64,000 nucleotides of DNA from a virus. Numbering within the stretch: position 1 is the first letter of the stretch; every line of letters starts with the position of its first letter. The stretch is taken from the IMG/VR virus record IMGVR_UViG_3300003323_000257, positions 1 to 64,000 of that record. One strand, written 5' to 3'. The position numbers and the translations under genes were made by a program. Shown piece by piece: positions 46,626-55,845 of this stretch. The notes beneath the pieces are model-generated. The model had not been told where the DNA came from. It made no database searches and saw only the letters and a program-made list of their open reading frames with translations.

Positions 46626-47204
46626 ATGTTTATGGCCGCTAAGTTATTCTTCTCTACCTCATTAGGTAAATCTCTTCTATTGGTTTTGGCCTTCGCGCTC
46701 ACAGTGTTCGCTGCTTTCGAGTTAGGATCCAGCCACGGTTACTCCGATGGACACACGAAAGGCTTCAATGAAGGTCGAGCTTCACGTGATCCTGAAGTGC
46801 AGCACCTGCAAGACAACGTGGTAGCCTTATCAAAACTGATTAACGATGAACGCCTAGCTCAGGCCACCAAGATTGATAAACTGCAGTCTGATGCCGCCAA
46901 TCAAGCTGTGGAGACCTCTAAGAAACTCAATCAGCAAATACGCGAACGTGACAAGATTATTCAGAACTACAAAAATCAAGTACCTCCAGAGATTCAGCAG
47001 CACTGCGCGCTTTCCATGGAAACAGTTCAGGCCATCAACAAGTTAATTGACAATGCAAATGGAGTTCGAAATGAAGGACCTGTCCAAGGTGATACTGCTA
47101 CTGATAATAGTTCCTCTGGTCCTCCTGTGGATAGCCCTCACGCTAGCAACGGAGGACGAACAAATACCGATTCAAATAATAAAGGTCAAGGAGAAAACAA
47201 ATGA
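46626..47204 (+). CDS. i-spanin (Rz-like)
   Basis: 192 aa. One N-terminal membrane helix (SLLLVLAFALTVFAAFELG, about 16-34), then a periplasmic coiled coil (about 58-122, LQDNVVALSKLINDERLAQA onward), then QQHCALSMETVQAINKLIDN, the C-x-L-x-x-x-T/V-x-x-x-N ending typical of Rz. A disordered Ser/Asn-rich tail extends beyond the usual length. It pairs with the lipoprotein encoded next to disrupt the outer membrane at lysis. Confidence 0.8.
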   Translation: MFMAAKLFFSTSLGKSLLLVLAFALTVFAAFELGSSHGYSDGHTKGFNEGRASRDPEVQHLQDNVVALSKLINDERLAQATKIDKLQSDAANQAVETSKKLNQQIRERDKIIQNYKNQVPPEIQQHCALSMETVQAINKLIDNANGVRNEGPVQGDTATDNSSSGPPVDSPHASNGGRTNTDSNNKGQGENK

Positions 47205-47494
47205 ATAGGATTAGTTTGTGGCTACTGGCTCCCTTGCTTTTGGTAGGCTGTGCGGATCAACCAGTCAAGCAAAAACCTTTGGAAGACGTGGTGCTAGTGC
47301 CTGAGAAGAAGACGGTATCGATCCCTGACGAGACATTACGAGAGTGCGATCCTCTGCCAAAAATGGAGGAGCGAAAGTACACAGAAGCTGAAACGCTTGA
47401 TTTTATGCAGTCCCTGGTTACCAACCAATCCGACTGCCGCAAAAGGAAGAGCGACGAAACGCAAACTCTAAAGAAGGCGTTCAATAGTAAATAA
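47201..47494 (+). CDS. o-spanin lipoprotein (Rz1-like)
   Basis: 97 aa. Signal peptide with lipobox LLVGC (Cys17 would carry the lipid), Pro-containing linker, then LRECDPLPKMEERKYTEAET and SDCRKRKSDE, the C ... C-x-x-K layout common in o-spanins. It follows the i-spanin by a 4-nt overlap. Its last codons (AAT AGT AAA TAA) contain the promoter-like motif at 47485. Confidence 0.85.
   Translation: MNRISLWLLAPLLLVGCADQPVKQKPLEDVVLVPEKKTVSIPDETLRECDPLPKMEERKYTEAETLDFMQSLVTNQSDCRKRKSDETQTLKKAFNSK
47485..47493 (+). promoter_or_regulatory. TAGTAAATA promoter-like motif
   Basis: Overlaps the stop of the o-spanin gene, upstream of the QueD start at 47570. A terminator-like hairpin (47507-47542) lies between it and that start. 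Confidence 0.5.
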
Positions 47495-47569: not shown

Positions 47570-48019
47570 ATGCATTATTCGACTAAGACGTATGGGCATG
47601 AGATCGGCCTATCCTGTGTATTTCGTCAATGGAGGGCTGAAAGCCATTGCCGTTTGGCCCATGGTTATGCACTTTCCTTTAAGTTCATATTCGCTGCTGA
47701 AGAATTAGACCACAGAGGGTGGGTTTGCGATTTTGGAGGACTGAAACCTCTAAAAGGTATTCTTGAAGACACCTTCGACCATACTTTCCTGGTAGCTGAA
47801 GATGATCCTAAGTTCGATGTAATAATGGATCTTGATCGAGTTCACGGTATTGCAAAAGTAGTGCCTGTCCCTGCGGCTGGATGTGAACGCACTGCCGAAA
47901 TGGTCTACGAGGTGGCAGAACAATGGCTCAAGGATGCAGGGTACAGTCCTCGCGTTCGCTTGGTATCTGTGGAAGTTTCCGAACACGGTGCAAACAGCGC
48001 CATTTACACGAAAGATTAA
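47570..48019 (+). CDS. queD: 6-carboxytetrahydropterin synthase (QueD, phage type)
   Basis: 149 aa T-fold protein. FRQWRAESHCRLAHGYALSF, then DHRGWVCDFGGLKPLK, then LEDTFDHTFLV and the terminal SVEVSEHGANSAIY give the order of the QueD family. The metal site is the phage variant H-C-x-x-x-H-G-Y instead of H...HGH; the catalytic Asp-His (FDH) and Glu (VEVSEHG) are present. It turns dihydroneopterin triphosphate (made by FolE, 53657) into 6-carboxytetrahydropterin, the QueE substrate. Confidence 0.85.
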   Translation: MHYSTKTYGHEIGLSCVFRQWRAESHCRLAHGYALSFKFIFAAEELDHRGWVCDFGGLKPLKGILEDTFDHTFLVAEDDPKFDVIMDLDRVHGIAKVVPVPAAGCERTAEMVYEVAEQWLKDAGYSPRVRLVSVEVSEHGANSAIYTKD

Positions 48020-48020
48020 C

Positions 48021-48377
48021 ATGGGAAAGAAACTAGTTTGGGTAACCTTTCAGCGCAAAGGCTTTCACTTCTATCCAGGTGCACCTAGTGAGGTAGCATA
48101 TCTGCAGGATCGTCATCGCCATTTATTCAAGTTCAAGGTGAAGATTGAAGTCTTCCACGATGACCGTGAAATCGAGTTCCACATGTTCCTGAACAAGATC
48201 GAAAGCTGGTACGACAGCGGAGCACTGGAACTCAATCATAAGTCCTGTGAAATGCTGGCAGATGATCTGCACGCCAAGCTTAACAAAGAGTATGGCGGGA
48301 CCGGCAGGCCTCGCGAGTGCGTTATCGAGGTGTCTGAAGATGGGGAGTGTGGCGCTGAGTGCCACTACATGGTATGA
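48021..48377 (+). CDS. second T-fold (QueD-like) protein (118 aa)
   Basis: Start at MGKKLVWVTFQRKGFHFYPG, 1 nt after queD. PSEVAYLQDRHRHLFKFKVK, EVFHDDREIEFHMF, LNHKSCEMLADDL and VSEDGECGAECHY follow a phage/bacterial family annotated as QueD-like. HRHLF stands where HGH is in QueD. It may be a paralogue working with QueD or may act on a different pterin. Stop overlaps the next start. Confidence 0.65.
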   Translation: MGKKLVWVTFQRKGFHFYPGAPSEVAYLQDRHRHLFKFKVKIEVFHDDREIEFHMFLNKIESWYDSGALELNHKSCEMLADDLHAKLNKEYGGTGRPRECVIEVSEDGECGAECHYMV

Positions 48378-48919
48378 AAGACAGCTCCGCCGTAAAGGAC
48401 TTTACTGGCTTAAAGTTTCCGCCTGCATCGATTGAATACGCAATGTTCGAGGGCTTTGAGCAAGAAGGTCCGTTAAAAGGAAAGTTCACGTTGTTCATTG
48501 TAGGTCCTATGCCTTATGAAGATATCCTGGCTCAACTGTCCATTAAGGACTATGACCAAATTTATTTCGGTGCAGGTGGCCGCTTCGATTACCACCCAAA
48601 ATCTGTTGAAGTCGTTTACAAGAATATCAATTCGGACGTTATCGTTACTGTGGAGAATCCAGTAATAGATTTTGACTTGATGGACTCCTGCGAGAACTTA
48701 CATTGGATGTGCCCTATGGTCTGGCATGGTGAAGCTGTTCCGAATGCGATGGCATCTTTGGCCAAGCTCAGTGAAAAGCCACGCTACTATGATGACACCA
48801 TTATAGTGAAGATTGACACTGGGTTGGCCACCTATTCTGCTTACTACGGCGCTTTAAAGCACTCCAGCTATGGTGACTACTCTGCTGACAAGCTGATAAT
48901 GCAAAAGGAAAGACAATGA
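48374..48919 (+). CDS. unknown protein in the 7-deazaguanine cluster (181 aa)
   Basis: MKDSSAVKDFTGLKFPPASI; alpha/beta protein with QIYFGAGGRFDYHPKSVEVV, NPVIDFDLMDSCENLHWMCP and a Tyr-rich end (TYSAYYGALKHSSYGDYSAD). ATGA overlaps on both sides bind it tightly to the QueD-like and glycosyltransferase genes, so it probably acts in the same pathway. No family recognised. Confidence 0.75.
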   Translation: MKDSSAVKDFTGLKFPPASIEYAMFEGFEQEGPLKGKFTLFIVGPMPYEDILAQLSIKDYDQIYFGAGGRFDYHPKSVEVVYKNINSDVIVTVENPVIDFDLMDSCENLHWMCPMVWHGEAVPNAMASLAKLSEKPRYYDDTIIVKIDTGLATYSAYYGALKHSSYGDYSADKLIMQKERQ

Positions 48920-50085
48920 AGATTTTTTACATGGGACTAGAGAAGGTAGAGTCTCGCTACAGTCATCAGCTCACTGATTGGAACACCTCGGAATTCGAAC
49001 GCCTAGGTGTACCTTATCGAGTTGTGACTGGCTCGGAAATTCCAGCAGTGCAAGGTCAGATCGTTAATGGTTCGGTTCTTGATGCACACGGACGTACCTA
49101 CTATGCGATGACTCAAATGTCTTCCTTGGTAGCGATGATGCAAGCTGGCGAAGTAACTGAAAACGATGTGGTCTTCTTTGAGGACATGTTCACACCGGGT
49201 ATCGAAAGCCTGGCGTACATTATGGCCCAAACACCAGATAAATATCGGCCACGAGTGTACGTTCGTTGTCTGGCTCAAACTATTGATCCAGACGATTTCG
49301 TTCATCGTACTGGCATGTTTGATTGGATGCGACATTTCGAACTAATGTTGGATTCCTTCATCACTGGTATCCTGGTGGCTTCTGAAGAAATGGTTGCCCA
49401 TCTTCGTATCGCAGGATTCAAGTCCAACATTTATGTTACAGGTCTCCCGTTCGGCAAACAGGAAGTTCGTTCGCGAGTACCTCACTTGAAGGCTCTGTCC
49501 GATCGCCCTAAAGTTGTGTCATTCGCTTCACGCTGGGACGATGAAAAGCAACCATTCTTCTTCCTCCAAGTAATGGATGCGGTAAAGCAGTTGGATCCCT
49601 CTATCCAATTTCAGATCCTTACTGGAAACAAGACACTGAAGTCCAACAACGAGAAGGCCTTGCATGCTGCTAGGTCGTACGATAACAGTTGGCTTACCAT
49701 CAAAGAAGGTCTGACCAAGAATGAGTACTATCAGGAACTGGCAAACTCACGCTTGCTTATGAATACCGCACTCCAAGACTGGGTGTCAAACACAATCTCT
49801 GAAGCGGACACCCTAGGGTGTATGACTTTGTTCCCTGCGTATAGGTCCTTCCCTGAAACAGTCGGTAACCGTCCAGAGCACCTATATCTGCCATGGTCTG
49901 TGGAAGATGCTGCAGCAAAGCTGGTTAAACTAATTAATCTGGAAATGACCCAGCCTGACATTGGTAAGATTTCAGATTATCAAGACCGCTCAATTGTGAG
50001 GACAGTGAAAGTACTAAAGGGCGGCCAATCATGGGCGCGCAATACCTTAGGTTACCGTCAGCACGTCGCACGTACCAAATTCTAG
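48916..50085 (+). CDS. glycosyltransferase (GT-B fold, GT4-like)
   Basis: 389 aa. N-terminal Rossmann part with DVVFFEDMFTPGIESLAYIM and RVYVRCLAQTIDPDDF. The C-terminal half has KVVSFASRWDDEKQPFFFLQ (sugar-nucleotide domain start), ILTGN, YYQELANSRLLMNTALQDWV and NTISEADTLGCMTLFPAY, where the E-A-D...G-C pattern corresponds to the E-x7-E donor site of GT4 enzymes. Located inside the DNA-modification cluster, so a glycosylated 7-deazaguanine is a reasonable hypothesis. Confidence 0.7.
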   Translation: MKIFYMGLEKVESRYSHQLTDWNTSEFERLGVPYRVVTGSEIPAVQGQIVNGSVLDAHGRTYYAMTQMSSLVAMMQAGEVTENDVVFFEDMFTPGIESLAYIMAQTPDKYRPRVYVRCLAQTIDPDDFVHRTGMFDWMRHFELMLDSFITGILVASEEMVAHLRIAGFKSNIYVTGLPFGKQEVRSRVPHLKALSDRPKVVSFASRWDDEKQPFFFLQVMDAVKQLDPSIQFQILTGNKTLKSNNEKALHAARSYDNSWLTIKEGLTKNEYYQELANSRLLMNTALQDWVSNTISEADTLGCMTLFPAYRSFPETVGNRPEHLYLPWSVEDAAAKLVKLINLEMTQPDIGKISDYQDRSIVRTVKVLKGGQSWARNTLGYRQHVARTKF

Positions 50086-50091
50086 TAAATA
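50082..50091 (+). promoter_or_regulatory. CTAGTAAATA promoter-like motif
   Basis: Exact CTAGTAAATA overlapping the TAG stop of the glycosyltransferase gene; a terminator-like hairpin follows at 50101-50129 before the next start at 50148. Confidence 0.55.
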
Positions 50092-50100
50092 GAGGTACCT

Positions 50101-50129
50101 AGGCTGAGCCAGTCAAGGCTCAGCCTTTT
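50101..50129 (+). terminator. rho-independent terminator or leader hairpin
   Basis: AGGCTGAGCC and GGCTCAGCCT pair perfectly with a 6-nt loop, then TTTT. It lies downstream of the promoter-like box, so it could end the upstream operon and also stand in the leader of the next. Confidence 0.85.
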
Positions 50130-50147
50130 CCTACCTATGAGGTTCAA

Positions 50148-50948
50148 ATGGACGCACCAAAAATTCGTAAATTCGGCATTATCGGTACCTCTTGTGCCGG
50201 TAAGACCACTCTGGCCCATACCTTGGTCGGCCGTCTTAAGTCATACGGTATCCTTGCTGATGGCTTGTTTAGCCAGGACCGGAAGTTCTCGTTTGATAAA
50301 AAATATATCGAAACAGAGGAAGCTCAGAATTGGATGATCTGCAATCTGATCGCGAAAGAGGTGGACCTGAGCCTACATGGAGACGTGGAAGTGTTGATCA
50401 CTGATAGGACTCCTATTGATCTGTTTGCCTACTACTCTCACCAACATAACACGCGATTGAGCGAAGCTTGCTGGAACTACGCTAAAGAGTGGGCTAAGAC
50501 CTACGATGCCTTGTACTTTCTGGAACCTCTTCCTTACCAGGATGATGGAAAGCGCCCATCGGATGATTTCAGGCTGGCTGTAGACGCGGAACTTCGTTTC
50601 CTAATTAAGATGATTCCTAACGTGTATCAGTTAGGACGGCATGAAGTTATGAATGACATCCTAAAGAGGATTGGCTTTAAAAAGCCTGGAGTGAAGATGG
50701 ACTTTACTCCCAAGGATGCTCAGACTCTGGCCAACCATATTCAACGCTCCTTGGTGGTCAAGCGCTCGGAAATAAAGGATGCACTTTCTGATTACGACGT
50801 GTGGATCTTAGCAGGATTGGACTTCAACATTCAATCTGTAAGATCCTATGCATCAGGTCTGTTTGGAACTTTCGTTCCCCTGGAAATCAACCTTGCTGTT
50901 TCTACGGAAACTCTAACTTTTGAATTCGACCGTTATGACCCAGAATAA
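50148..50948 (+). CDS. P-loop kinase/ATPase (AAA_28-like)
   Basis: 266 aa. Walker A GTSCAGKT (13-20), ITDRTPIDLFAYYSHQHNTR as the lid-side motif of the AAA_28/NadR-type kinases, and Y-D-A-L-Y-F-L-E-P-L-P-Y. The C-terminal 60 residues are an extra domain. First gene of the DpdA operon; may phosphorylate a nucleoside or pathway intermediate. Not specific to any known modification step. Confidence 0.75.
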   Translation: MDAPKIRKFGIIGTSCAGKTTLAHTLVGRLKSYGILADGLFSQDRKFSFDKKYIETEEAQNWMICNLIAKEVDLSLHGDVEVLITDRTPIDLFAYYSHQHNTRLSEACWNYAKEWAKTYDALYFLEPLPYQDDGKRPSDDFRLAVDAELRFLIKMIPNVYQLGRHEVMNDILKRIGFKKPGVKMDFTPKDAQTLANHIQRSLVVKRSEIKDALSDYDVWILAGLDFNIQSVRSYASGLFGTFVPLEINLAVSTETLTFEFDRYDPE

Positions 50949-52359
50949 TAAAAGGCGGCCCTTTGGATACGTGTTGGCTGCCATAACTGCGCGCTCTCCA
51001 TCGTCTTTCATTGGCGTCAAATACGAAGACAACTCTAAGAAGCCGTATCTGTGGAAGCGAACACGCTTTAACGGATTGACCACTCATTGGACTCCTGATC
51101 GCACCATCTACTATGGCTCGCCTGGACCAAGGGCGAACGCTATTCCTACTGTTGACCTGGACGTAGTGTTTCCAATTAGCGCTCCGACAGAACCAGAGGT
51201 ATTGGTGAACGCCGGATTCGACTACGCTATGGCCTCTCCGCACCATGTTAGTGCTGGATCGGAGACCCGGAGAAACGATAAGGTAAAGCTGTTCTGTGAC
51301 TCAGGTGGGTTCCAGTTAATCAGTGGAGCCTTGGACTGGGTGGACATGGATGAATTGGCAGACACGTACAACAGAACCATCGATTACGGAATTGGCCTAG
51401 ACATACCTACGCCAGGTGAGCTACAGAAAGACTTCCTGATGCGTATGTGTGACGTGATGATCAAGAACAATCGCTATCTACGCAGCAAAGTTGTACCTGA
51501 AGTAGAGATTTATGACGTGAGTCACGGTAACACCTTACAGTTGAGAGCCAAGTTTTTGGATCGCGTATTGGCCGAAAAGAAGAAGGAACGTCGCGATGGT
51601 CAAGGATTGGCGATCGGTGCTATCGCGCAAAACTTTAAGGATGGCGGTCAGCGCCAAACTGTGGTTACTGGGTCGGTTAATCTCATATACACACTGTTAA
51701 AATCCAAAGGCCTGTACGAGAGATATCACGTATTAGGAACAACGAATTCGTTTTTTCAATTTCTGTACCACGTGCTTCTCCATTATGAAGTGGCCCCACA
51801 CATTACGGCGGACTCGACGTCCTACGTTTTGCCTGCGACGTATAATCTGATGATCGCCAACAAATTGGCTCCAGACCATTCCTTGTTATCGTTGGAGCTT
51901 CCAAAAGAGGAGCGCTCCTATACGTTGAACTGTAACTGTCCTGTGTGTTATCACGTAAAATATGCGCGTGAGTACCAGCTAATGTACATGACTAATACCT
52001 TACATGGTATGTATGCAACGGCCAACCAACGCGACCGAATCGAGGAAATAGCAGGAGAATACTTGAGGGGACGTATTGGACTAAATGAAGCGCTCTCGGT
52101 GTGTACCGGTGAACCTGCTTCGTCTCTCAAGGTGTACACAGCCATCGTAAAGTTTGCTATCGAGGCCGCCGAAAAAGGTTTTAAAGAAGCCTGGCTTTAC
52201 CATGAGAAAACATTGAATGGCTTAATGCGAGGTTCAGTCTCCACAGGCGGTTTGTTCAACAAAGGCACCAAGGCAATGTCTTCTAAGGCTAAGCGACTGG
52301 ACTCCATCCTTACTCGCTTTGAAGAGTTCCATGCAGCTAAAACAAAGGGACGCAAATGA
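50935..52359 (+). CDS. dpdA: DpdA-like DNA 7-deazaguanine transglycosylase
   Basis: 474 aa, related to tRNA-guanine transglycosylase. FCDSGGFQL (Asp122 as in the TGT D-S-G-G-F-Q motif), GIGLDIPTPG (Asp156), QGLAIGAIAQ, and a zinc site C333-x-C335-x2-C338 ... H357. DpdA enzymes swap guanine in DNA for a 7-deazaguanine base. Start at the ATG 14 nt inside the kinase gene. With QueE/QueD/FolE next to it, DNA rather than tRNA is the likely target. TGT-like phage proteins differ from DpdA subgroups, and the subgroup cannot be set by eye. Confidence 0.85.
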   Translation: MTQNNKRRPFGYVLAAITARSPSSFIGVKYEDNSKKPYLWKRTRFNGLTTHWTPDRTIYYGSPGPRANAIPTVDLDVVFPISAPTEPEVLVNAGFDYAMASPHHVSAGSETRRNDKVKLFCDSGGFQLISGALDWVDMDELADTYNRTIDYGIGLDIPTPGELQKDFLMRMCDVMIKNNRYLRSKVVPEVEIYDVSHGNTLQLRAKFLDRVLAEKKKERRDGQGLAIGAIAQNFKDGGQRQTVVTGSVNLIYTLLKSKGLYERYHVLGTTNSFFQFLYHVLLHYEVAPHITADSTSYVLPATYNLMIANKLAPDHSLLSLELPKEERSYTLNCNCPVCYHVKYAREYQLMYMTNTLHGMYATANQRDRIEEIAGEYLRGRIGLNEALSVCTGEPASSLKVYTAIVKFAIEAAEKGFKEAWLYHEKTLNGLMRGSVSTGGLFNKGTKAMSSKAKRLDSILTRFEEFHAAKTKGRK

Positions 52360-52847
52360 AGATACTCAAGGTTCGTAATCTGTACGGCTACCCTTCGTAC
52401 ACCGACGCCATTGTGGAGTACAGCAAGTCCATAGGAGCTTCTCTTATTCTGGATCGCACTTCTTTGTTGAAGGCTCCCAAGGAGTGGAGGATGTCCAATA
52501 AGCCAAAAATCTTGGTCGACTCCTTCACGGCCTTCCTGCAAAGCGAGGTTCCTATCATTGGCTACAAGAATGATAGAGGTGTGTATCTCAAGGATTCGCG
52601 ATTACCCCATCGAGAGCATTTGGTAGACAACGTATGTCAGGTGAAGATACCTTCCAATCTGAAGCGCGTTCCATCTAAAGTGCTGGCCTCCGCTTTGAAA
52701 GCCAAGGTCAAAAAAGACTTCCTGGACTCTATTGATCCTGAGGATCCTAACTATAAAGTGGTCAAGGGCATGATAACGATTCACCTCCCTGCGTCCTTAA
52801 AGGACCCATTCACCAAAGTAAATAAGAAGACAAAGGAGAACACATGA
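52356..52847 (+). CDS. unknown protein between dpdA and queE (163 aa)
   Basis: MKILKVRNLYGYPSYTDAIV; alpha/beta N-terminal half (SKSIGASLILDRTSLL, KILVDSFTAFLQSEVPIIGY), basic C-terminal part (KVLASALKAKVKKDFLDSI). ATGA overlaps to DpdA upstream and QueE downstream. No family recognised; position argues for a role in base insertion or tailoring. Confidence 0.75.
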   Translation: MKILKVRNLYGYPSYTDAIVEYSKSIGASLILDRTSLLKAPKEWRMSNKPKILVDSFTAFLQSEVPIIGYKNDRGVYLKDSRLPHREHLVDNVCQVKIPSNLKRVPSKVLASALKAKVKKDFLDSIDPEDPNYKVVKGMITIHLPASLKDPFTKVNKKTKENT

Positions 52848-53647
52848 AAACCATCATGATTCAAAACCAAGATCGAAATATGAGTGCACGAGATTACCCG
52901 GACTCCACATTTCTACGTGTAACCTCAATGTTCCGAACCCTGCAAGGTGAAGGTCCATTCGCAGGCTTTCCAGCCGTGTTCCTTCGACTATCTGGATGTA
53001 ACTATGGTAGCAAAACGGATATGTGCACCTGGTGTGATACTTCCTTCCAATTTGACCATGGGCAGCTGCATACGATTGACCAGGTAGTAGCAGAGCTAAA
53101 TCATTTGGAAGGACGTCAGCCTTCTGACATTCTGGTAATCACTGGAGGGGAACCAACTCTTCAAAAAACTTTGCTAGGACTGATTTCAAAGGTATGGGCC
53201 AACAAATATTTCAAAACCATTCAAGTGGAAACCAATGGTACGCAGCCAAAGTTCTTTGAAGATGCTGAAGAGATGGGTCTCCTAGGTAAGGATAAAGTCA
53301 CCTTTGTAGTCTCACCGAAAGCTAACGAACGGCTCAAGAAATATCCTCAGGTTCACCCTAAGGTTAAATGGTGGGCGGATTGCTATAAGTTTGTCCTGTC
53401 TGCTGAAGAAGGTGACGCGCATCACGAAATTCCTGAATGGGCATTAACCGAGAAACATAAGCCTGTGTATGTAAGCCCTATGACAGTATACCTAAAACCA
53501 TATCAGGGTGAGGTGTCCTCTATTTGGGACGCTGACCTGGTGGATCAGGAACGCACCGCAGCAAACTACGCATACGCCGCTGCTTACGCCTTAAAACATA
53601 ACCTGCGTCTGAGTGTGCAAATGCACACCCTGACTGCCATAGCTTAA
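52844..53647 (+). CDS. queE: 7-carboxy-7-deazaguanine synthase (QueE)
   Basis: 267 aa. Radical-SAM enzyme with QGEG (34-37), cluster cysteines C52-x8-C61-x2-C64 (CNYGSKTDMCTWC), GGEP (101-104) and ETNGTQ. The long loop in the cysteine motif is the QueE variant. Converts 6-carboxytetrahydropterin to CDG. Ends with QMHTLTAIA as in family members. Confidence 0.93.
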   Translation: MKTIMIQNQDRNMSARDYPDSTFLRVTSMFRTLQGEGPFAGFPAVFLRLSGCNYGSKTDMCTWCDTSFQFDHGQLHTIDQVVAELNHLEGRQPSDILVITGGEPTLQKTLLGLISKVWANKYFKTIQVETNGTQPKFFEDAEEMGLLGKDKVTFVVSPKANERLKKYPQVHPKVKWWADCYKFVLSAEEGDAHHEIPEWALTEKHKPVYVSPMTVYLKPYQGEVSSIWDADLVDQERTAANYAYAAAYALKHNLRLSVQMHTLTAIA

Positions 53648-53656
53648 AGGACAAAC

Positions 53657-54325
53657 ATGAGTAAGACCAACGCTCAACTGGGACAGCAGATACACAAACA
53701 CCTGGAGGTGCTAGGTATCGAGACCCCTATGTTTGAAAATTCTCCGTCCGACCAGCTTAATATGATTACCAAGCTGGATCGCGTAGAGAAGCATTTTGCG
53801 GAGATCATGAAGTTACTCCAACTTAATCTTAATGATGACTCTCTAAGAGAGACACCAAGGCGAGTGGCAAAAATGTTTTTGAACGAGATTTTCTCCGGTC
53901 TTGATTACAATAATTTCCCTAAGTGCACCGTGATCGATAACAAGATGGGTGCTGACGAAATGGTGATCGAACGTAACATCACCATGAACTCCACTTGTGA
54001 ACATCATCTGTTGCCTATTATCGGGAAGGCACACGTAGCATACATTCCAGGTGCTAAGGTACTTGGTCTGTCCAAGATGAATCGGATTGTTCAGTTCTTC
54101 GCTGCACGTCCTCAAGTTCAGGAACGGTTGACTCTGCAAATTCATGCCGCCCTGTGTTTCATTCTTGAAACCAAAGACGTTGCGGTGGTAATCGAAGCCG
54201 AGCATATGTGTGTAAAGACCAGGGGCGTAGAGGACGCTTGCAGTGACACAGTGACTTCCAAAGTAAGTGGTGTATTCCGTAACCCAGTAACTCGTAATGA
54301 GTTCATCACCTTTACACGAAAATGA
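53657..54325 (+). CDS. folE: GTP cyclohydrolase I
   Basis: 222 aa. [24 protein letters not shown] (C114, H116/H117), [23 protein letters not shown] (C185) and the terminal R-N-P-V-T-R-N-E-F are the FolE signatures, with complete zinc ligands. It supplies dihydroneopterin triphosphate to QueD. Ribosome site AAAGGACAAAC; coupled to the HAD gene downstream. Confidence 0.95.
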
Positions 54326-54843
54326 GCATACACATAACTGAACACGGCCGTGATCTGGTGATCCTAGATATCGACGGCTGTTTATTGGACTCGGACTCGC
54401 GTCTACCGCATTTGCTGGCAGGTGATCGTGAGACCTACGACTCTCTCCATCCCACGGATCGTACGTGGCCGGCAGGCCATGCAGTGTACCGCATGTTTCA
54501 ACGCCATCCAGACGTAACGGTGTTGTTCGTTACTGCTAGGCAGGAAAATGCCAGGCACTATACAATGGAGCAGCTTAACCGAGCATTAGGTAGCAGCTCT
54601 CCTGTTATGCCTTGGCAACTGCTGATGCGCCCTACAGGGTGTTCCGATCCAGATATTATCTTGAAGCCTCGTTTGATAGAGGAGGCTGGATGGTCTTTGG
54701 AGCGTATTCTTGTGGTAGTTGAAGACAGCGACGCCACTGTTGCTATGTGGCGATCCAAAGGAATTGAATGTTGGCAGCCGCGTTCAAGCACCCACAACAT
54801 AAACACAGTGCAGCTGGCAATCGATTTAAACACTAGTAAATAA
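54322..54843 (+). CDS. HAD-family phosphatase
   Basis: 173 aa. Motif I DIDGCLLD (16-23), motif II VTAR, motif [23 protein letters not shown]. Resembles the phosphatase domain of T4 polynucleotide kinase/phosphatase and related phage phosphatases. It is the last gene of the deazaguanine operon and could act on a nucleotide or pterin phosphate or on DNA 3' ends. Stop overlaps the motif at 54833. Confidence 0.8.
54833..54842 (+). promoter_or_regulatory. CTAGTAAATA promoter-like motif
   Basis: Exact copy overlapping the stop of the HAD gene, 37 nt before the next start (54880). Confidence 0.6.
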
Positions 54844-54879: not shown

Positions 54880-55845
54880 ATGACGACTGACCAAGATTTC
54901 AACATCGCTGATTTGAATTTTCTGACCGAGGGATCGGTTTTCACCCGAGAGGACGGTCGGATGGCTCGCTTCCTGTTCCTGACCAACCAATCTCTGTCGG
55001 AAAAAATGAAGCAGAAGTTTCCACCGCAAGTGGTTTATGCAGACGAGAACGATAATATTCTCAGCTGCGACATCGACCGTTTCCTGGCTAAACGCAAGTT
55101 TGTTAATGTCATTCCTGAGTTGGAAGAACGCCTGCTCAATCTGCTTGCTGCCACCTCTTCGGAATCTGAAGAAACTCTGGACCTGGACTCCGATGATGAC
55201 CAACTGATCATCGAGGATACAGAATCGAGTGAATCCCAAGAAGGCGATCAACCTGCAGGAGACGATTTCATTGACAGCGATGAGAAACCTGTGGTTACTT
55301 TGCTTGCATCTCGTGATGATCTGCCTGTGGTAATCAATGTGGACCAATTTACTCAAGCCGTGTCGTCCTATCAGCAGAATCCAGGTGTCGAACCAGGCAC
55401 GCTGCAGCACACGCTGTTTATCCGCGAAGAGCCAGGCATTAGCAGCGAAACCATCTACGCTGCATTTAGCCCTACGCACGCGGACAAGAACGTTACCTAT
55501 GAGTTTCAAGTGGAGTACGAAGGTGAGAAGCGCACCGTCGAATGGGATACTTTCGCAGGTATCTATCCTGCAATCTTCTTCGGAAGCCGTATGTTCCAAG
55601 TGATCTTCTACGGTCCGCGAGTTCCTGCTGCAAGCTTGGTGGCCGCCGAGGAGTTGGCTCAGGAAAACACTGAGGTTATTACCGCTGCACCTGACGTGGA
55701 AATTCAACAAGGTCAACTGGTAGCCATCAATGAAGCCGGTCAAGCGGTTCCGGCGCAAGCTATTTCTAATCCTGCGGCTCAACCTGTTCAAGTGCAGGTA
55801 CAGCCTGTGGCGCAGGTTCAAGTCCAAGTGCAGGCCGCACAGTAA
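54880..55845 (+). CDS. multidomain protein with acidic linker and QV repeats (321 aa)
   Basis: N-terminal domain (1-90) helical. Acidic linker about 93-130 (ESEETLDLDSDDDQLIIEDT). Middle domain 135-255 beta-rich (GTLQHTLFIREEPGI, YEFQVEYEGEKRTVEWD). The C-terminus is a low-complexity run of Q-V-Q-V units (about 295-321). The plan recalls the acidic protein at 35423, and both sit directly behind promoter-like motifs. A structural or abundant late role is possible. A long open frame on the opposite strand is a shadow. Confidence 0.75.
   Translation: MTTDQDFNIADLNFLTEGSVFTREDGRMARFLFLTNQSLSEKMKQKFPPQVVYADENDNILSCDIDRFLAKRKFVNVIPELEERLLNLLAATSSESEETLDLDSDDDQLIIEDTESSESQEGDQPAGDDFIDSDEKPVVTLLASRDDLPVVINVDQFTQAVSSYQQNPGVEPGTLQHTLFIREEPGISSETIYAAFSPTHADKNVTYEFQVEYEGEKRTVEWDTFAGIYPAIFFGSRMFQVIFYGPRVPAASLVAAEELAQENTEVITAAPDVEIQQGQLVAINEAGQAVPAQAISNPAAQPVQVQVQPVAQVQVQVQAAQ

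Follow-up and report, generated by a model that had tools for sequence, protein, structure and literature searches.

A phage gene cassette predicted to place a sugar-bearing 7-deazaguanine in DNA, with a QueD-fold protein and a glycosyltransferase in the position of QueC

The 64,000-nucleotide stretch of phage DNA analyzed here (hereafter the window; positions 1 to 64,000 of IMG/VR virus record IMGVR_UViG_3300003323_000257) carries, at positions 47570-54843 and entirely on the + strand, a cassette for 7-deazaguanine DNA modification in which a small QueD-fold protein (X) and a glycosyltransferase (GT) are found in place of QueC, a combination common to hundreds of phage fragments. On balance, we favor the interpretation that the cassette directs the post-replicative formation of a hypermodified 7-deazaguanine in phage DNA, whereby 7-carboxy-7-deazaguanine (CDG) would be processed by X, inserted by a DpdA-type DNA-guanine transglycosylase and modified with a sugar by GT. 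The gene content, the intact motifs of DpdA and GT, the fold of X and the alternation of QueC and X across many phages, all read from sequence, carry this interpretation, and it is the sugar step that we infer to be the novel part of an otherwise known kind of system.

The enzymes leading from GTP to CDG were clearly identified by family models and form a complete set, consisting of a QueD-like 6-carboxy-tetrahydropterin synthase for the first dedicated step to CDG (47570..48019; PF01242 (PTPS) E=8.9e-17; phrog_2389 E=2.5e-41), a QueE-like radical SAM enzyme, or 7-carboxy-7-deazaguanine synthase (52844..53647; phrog_2076 E=6.4e-43; PF04055), and FolE, GTP cyclohydrolase I (53657..54325; NCBIfam FolE E=2.9e-89, above cut-off). 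Searches across the whole 133,922-bp viral record, which is probably incomplete, returned no matches to QueC or Gat-QueC (PF06508), expected of the dPreQ0/dG+ type, or to QueF (PF14489), expected of the dPreQ1 type. The sequence-only reading of this DNA had described a 7-deazaguanine DNA-modification cluster without QueC or QueF in the window, comprising QueD, QueE, FolE and a DpdA-like transglycosylase; these four genes are borne out by the family models and by a profile match of DpdA to known transglycosylases, and the absence now extends to the rest of the record. That inventory missed X, GT and a further protein, Y, between QueD and DpdA, and left three other cassette genes unnamed (a kinase-like gene, the orphan Z and a HAD-type phosphatase). 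In an alignment with an E. coli QueD sequence entered by hand, the phage-family QueD of the window (47570-48019) has two of the three zinc-binding histidines of the E. coli protein replaced (by R and Y) and retains C27, H31 and D70-H71.

The DpdA-type protein (50920..52359, with a start that is ambiguous between TTG 50920 and ATG 50935) has on its own no direct Pfam match at E<=0.1, and zero relatives were found in viral contigs when it was used as a single-protein probe. A profile built from the window protein and its relatives matches the archaeosine tRNA-guanine transglycosylase (TGT) 1iq8 (E=1.7e-14). It also matches a number of bacterial TGTs and, at E=0.0028, 7ui4, a DNA-guanine transglycosylase of solved structure. 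Residues D127 (in DSGGFQ) and D298 align with D95 and D249 of the archaeosine TGT, which we take to be the catalytic aspartates of the archaeal enzyme, and D127, D161 and D298 are invariant in 31 sequences (27 DpdA-type and 4 tRNA TGT). Judged by this alignment, the active site of the window DpdA is intact, with both catalytic aspartates kept. In a small tree, which contains no archaeosine-type TGT, the 27 phage or cluster DpdAs separate from the 4 cellular tRNA TGTs, and the window protein lies among phage DpdAs that include nt-1 DpdA2, as the sister of Motura DpdA (support 0.94). The sequence-only reading had named a clustering with tRNA TGTs as a result that would count against it; the protein groups with phage DpdA instead.

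X (48021..48377; phrog_17812 E=1.7e-32) is a T-fold protein of 118 aa with a distant relationship to QueD, and its recurrence with GT was assessed from both sides. A search of viral contigs for X retrieved at least 584 related stretches, from which 80 loci were kept; together with named phages, these yielded 91 X loci with usable flanks. GT was present in 66 of them, a different TGT-like protein (phrog_20335) in 23, neither in 2 and both in none, and QueC was found near X in 0/91. The reverse search was started from three single GT proteins, to avoid choosing loci by X, and among the 152 loci flanked by 3.5 kb or more on both sides it found X in 149, DpdA in 152 and QueC in none. At the level of whole records, 51/53 X records had no above-cut-off QueC match, and the 45 large records from the GT-started search comprised 40 without such a match and 5 with marginal fragments (22-26 bits); above-cut-off QueC-family matches thus occur in 7/98 large X- or GT-bearing records, as fragments of ~17-33 bits that are perhaps other PP-loop ATPases, and all of these counts are to be read knowing that the local QueC model derives from one sequence, that many contigs are fragments and that close relatives inflate the numbers. 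The protein phrog_20335 (L029 9798-10577 and relatives) appears to be a distant TGT-type barrel (weak hhalign probability of 15%, E=0.0017) and is a candidate second DpdA type. GT, X and DpdA also occur together in bacterial contigs (L355, L356 and the Magnetospirillum contigs L358, L359, L361 and L362, with QueD as well in Magnetospirillum), where they adjoin response-regulator-like genes or a CoiA-nuclease-domain gene; these loci may represent either a cellular system or what is left of prophages.

The assignment of GT (48916..50085) as a GT4-like glycosyltransferase rests on profiles and motifs. The protein alone falls below the cut-off for Pfam Glyco_trans_1_4 (E=0.006, 17.3 bits vs a gathering cut-off of 27); its profile reaches GT4 structures (e.g. 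6tvp, E=2.8e-4), and both R206-x4-K211 and E296 of the E-x7-E motif, which are GT4 motifs, are invariant. In 20/66 GT loci, as against 1/23 loci of the other type, an epimerase gene is found close to GT, often with overlapping ends; this difference may be partly a lineage effect, since the two types belong to distinct lineages of phages. Genes resembling UDP-sugar dehydrogenases and cytidylyltransferases, as well as DegT-type aminotransferase genes, are also found near GT in relatives. Y (48374..48919) is a core partner in these clusters, being present in 49/66 GT-type loci and in 0/23 of the other type. Pfam, PDB and fold searches with Y all ended without a match, its AlphaFold2 (AF2) model is of moderate confidence (pLDDT 72), and its seeming resemblance to QueE did not hold up (hhalign probability 0.8%).

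Several observations weigh against a sugar-bearing base. At the first acidic position of E-x7-E, four relatives have E, and the window and BUCT-ZZ01 have D; the window cassette itself contains no sugar-nucleotide genes, and those of large phages can serve other purposes; the window Y is a divergent member of its family (103 bits, 16-24% identity); and X also occurs without GT (type B, including phiST-type clusters), so that the two are separable. This last point favors the alternative that survives best, though we still find it doubtful: X would produce, and DpdA insert, a CDG-derived base without a sugar (dCDG or dDG), and GT would act elsewhere, for instance on a host surface polymer. However, GT is accompanied by X and DpdA at almost all loci, whatever the gene order or lineage, which would be unexpected for a surface-polymer enzyme.

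Two further loci broaden the picture around GT. The BUCT-ZZ01 cluster (L010 10087-13347) holds a second glycosyltransferase-like protein of 447 aa, which had been considered as a DpdA and was rejected as such, together with a xanthine-guanine phosphoribosyltransferase gene. In PhiXhv-16 (L014 7618-10852), a distant GT relative stands beside a QueC-family open reading frame (ORF) annotated as glutamine-fructose-6-phosphate aminotransferase, possibly a Gat-QueC, and the locus, which perhaps specifies another sugar-bearing deazaguanine, also includes GlcNAc-deacetylase-like and leucyl/phenylalanyl-tRNA transferase-like genes.

The relationship between X and QueC is best seen among named genomes. 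All six genomes with a related DpdA and without X (Motura, NCTB, GR11A, Voja-6, PhiXhv-16 and pf16) have QueC-family matches; the X-bearing BUCT-ZZ01, Deifobo, ACP17 and the window record have none, and X1 has only a 16-bit match below the cut-off. The two states alternate on the DpdA tree, where pf16 and nt-1 adjoin the X-bearing BUCT-ZZ01 and X1, and the window's own sister, Motura, has QueC. In nt-1, a gene annotated ExsB, which we take to be a synonym of QueC, directly follows DpdA, and in the QueC-bearing relatives Motura, nt-1 and pf16 QueC lies beside or near DpdA. Given this alternation, and because the remaining pathway genes are common to Motura and the window, the comparison supports a replacement of QueC rather than its loss. 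In terms of gene content, unrelated phage genomes fill the same functional slot either with QueC or with X, which in one of two types is accompanied by GT. The sequence-only reading had proposed that the base could be CDG itself or that host QueC supplies preQ0; QueC is indeed absent from the record, and since its slot is held by X it is neither simply lost nor left to the host. Either proposal is hence unlikely to be the whole story, and the data agree better with a base that derives from CDG and undergoes further modification by X and GT. Host participation has been proposed for other phages (PMC6884629), and host QueC could in principle convert CDG to preQ0, the phage base then being ordinary dPreQ0 or a host-derived product. 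We regard this as improbable, for it leaves unexplained both the consistent substitution of X for QueC and the retention by close relatives of a QueC of their own.

The structural evidence on X bears on what it might do. Its AF2 model (pLDDT 92) shows the strand-helix order of a T-fold, the best solved Foldseek matches of the model are QueD and pyruvoyl-tetrahydropterin synthases (E ~1e-3, TM ~0.7), and its profile matches phage QueD by hhalign (E=1.6e-5). H16, H32, H34, E77 and E106 are invariant in the X alignment, with H-x-H present. C27 and D70-H71, invariant in the QueD alignment, are not seen in X by profile alignment, and X is therefore probably not a synthase of 6-carboxy-tetrahydropterin (CPH4). 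These residues argue against the alternative, which we consider less probable still, that X substitutes for or assists QueD, and not QueC, in making CPH4. The QueD fold of X is in its favor, as is the scarcity of QueD in some data (nearby in 0/35 GT-type loci of one set, and wholly absent from 12/19 large records, some of them fragments), but QueD and X co-occur in the window, ACP17, BUCT-ZZ01 and most type-B clusters, and it is QueC, not QueD, that X excludes. X is instead a candidate CDG-processing enzyme. A 2023 study by Cui et al. (cited in PMC13329287) reportedly described dCDG and dDG in phages, with a proposed CDG decarboxylase, DpdL, and X may be DpdL. Homologues of X are also found near FolE and QueD- or QueE-like genes, without DpdA or GT, in Amycolatopsis (L371, L377), Bradyrhizobium (L376), Methanoperedenaceae (L378) and Streptomyces (L380-L381); their presence in actinomycete, rhizobial and archaeal genomes suggests a use outside DNA modification, e.g. 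in small-molecule synthesis.

The 133,922-bp record is probably a fragment of a larger genome, because end repeats are absent and its best DNA polymerase relatives are phages of 221-264 kb, whose hosts are Burkholderia and Achromobacter. This would permit a QueC in the unsequenced part and a standard dPreQ0 pathway, but that is highly improbable, as phages listed as complete genomes have the same X and GT set without QueC, and QueC, where relatives have it, stands beside or near DpdA.

Under the favored interpretation of a glycosylated, CDG-derived base, FolE, QueD and QueE would convert GTP into CDG, on which X, in the position of QueC, would most likely act, perhaps by decarboxylation or by preparing the 7-position. 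DpdA would then exchange guanine in DNA for the X-processed base, and GT, probably aided by Y, would transfer a sugar, the identity of which we can only infer, from a nucleotide sugar. A deazaguanine would be the acceptor, possibly through the carboxylate of CDG, through C7 after decarboxylation or through a hydroxyl made there, and glycosylation would presumably follow insertion.

In the cassette, a 10-bp hairpin followed by TTTT, resembling a terminator, stands between the GT and kinase genes (50101..50129, + strand; -20.3 kcal/mol, z=-5.0), making two transcription units plausible, in agreement with the two coupled operons that had been suggested from the sequence alone. Y is listed as an ORF from GTG 48359; taken from the ATG at 48374, its start overlaps the stop codon of X as ATGA; the Y stop and the GT start overlap in the same manner, and most other junctions are also overlapping. 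Downstream of the hairpin, the P-loop kinase-like protein (AAA_28/thymidylate-kinase-like; 50148..50948; PF13521 E=4.9e-9; phrog_2107) is rare among relatives and common to the window and the related locus L041. Although the orphan Z (52356..52847) lies between DpdA and QueE and overlaps both, no relative of it turned up in the libraries and collections searched, which included phages, Pfam and PHROGs. The final gene encodes a HAD-type/PNKP polynucleotide-phosphatase-like protein (54322..54843; PF25109 E=2e-14). By gene order, the cassette is a discrete insertion. Its flanks match those of Burkholderia phage BcepSaruman (polymerase, hypothetical, primase and, past the cassette, the genes at 54880 and 55911), in which the homologue of the 54880 gene directly follows the annotated o-spanin. 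Window genes at 46626-47494 occupy the position of the two BcepSaruman spanins, and 47201-47494 also matches a Motura gene at the same position; Motura's own deazaguanine cluster, with QueC and an asparagine-synthetase-like (AsnB-like) gene, is located elsewhere in its genome.

If correct, the interpretation predicts that phage DNA contains a class of guanine analogue carrying a sugar, much as T4 DNA contains glucosylated cytosine; our literature searches found no report of a glycosylated deazaguanine in phage DNA. Predicted carriers are many uncultured phages and the cultured ACP17, X1, BUCT-ZZ01 and Pseudomonas aeruginosa Wroclawvirus group, including PA5oct and Paride. More tentatively, a sugar-bearing 7-deazaguanine made through the CDG branch, with a QueD-fold protein replacing QueC, a dedicated GT4 enzyme and sometimes its own sugar-nucleotide enzymes, could be a so far undescribed strategy that very many phages use. 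For X and Y, both of them widespread families that lack annotation, the interpretation supplies concrete candidate functions, and because some of the carriers are cultured, the prediction can be tested.

Compared with known systems, dCDG and dDG modification is CDG-based, like that predicted for the window, and presumably lacks QueC. Cellulophaga phiST resembles the window in having X and no QueC, and differs from it in the absence of GT. The phage systems for dPreQ0, dPreQ1 and dG+ surveyed by Hutinet 2019, who noted that one QueC-less phage might carry CDG, include dPreQ0/dG+ systems with DpdA/DpdA2 that share FolE-QueD-QueE and DpdA with the window (PMC6884629); unlike these, the window has X in place of QueC or Gat-QueC, and GT and Y as core members. 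Deazaguanine systems were described in Motura and PA5oct by Iyer 2021 (PMC7824862), and the cluster of Motura (L005), an Achromobacter phage, shares with the window QueD (65% identity), DpdA (33%), QueE (49%) and FolE (60%), but carries QueC and the AsnB-like gene in the place taken by X, Y, GT and the kinase in the window. The glucosylated and arabinosylated cytosines of T4, T6 and RB69 (PMC13390438) are alike in outline, in that the base is made first and the sugar is then added by a phage glycosyltransferase; in the window, by contrast, the predicted acceptor is a 7-deazaguanine inserted by base exchange.

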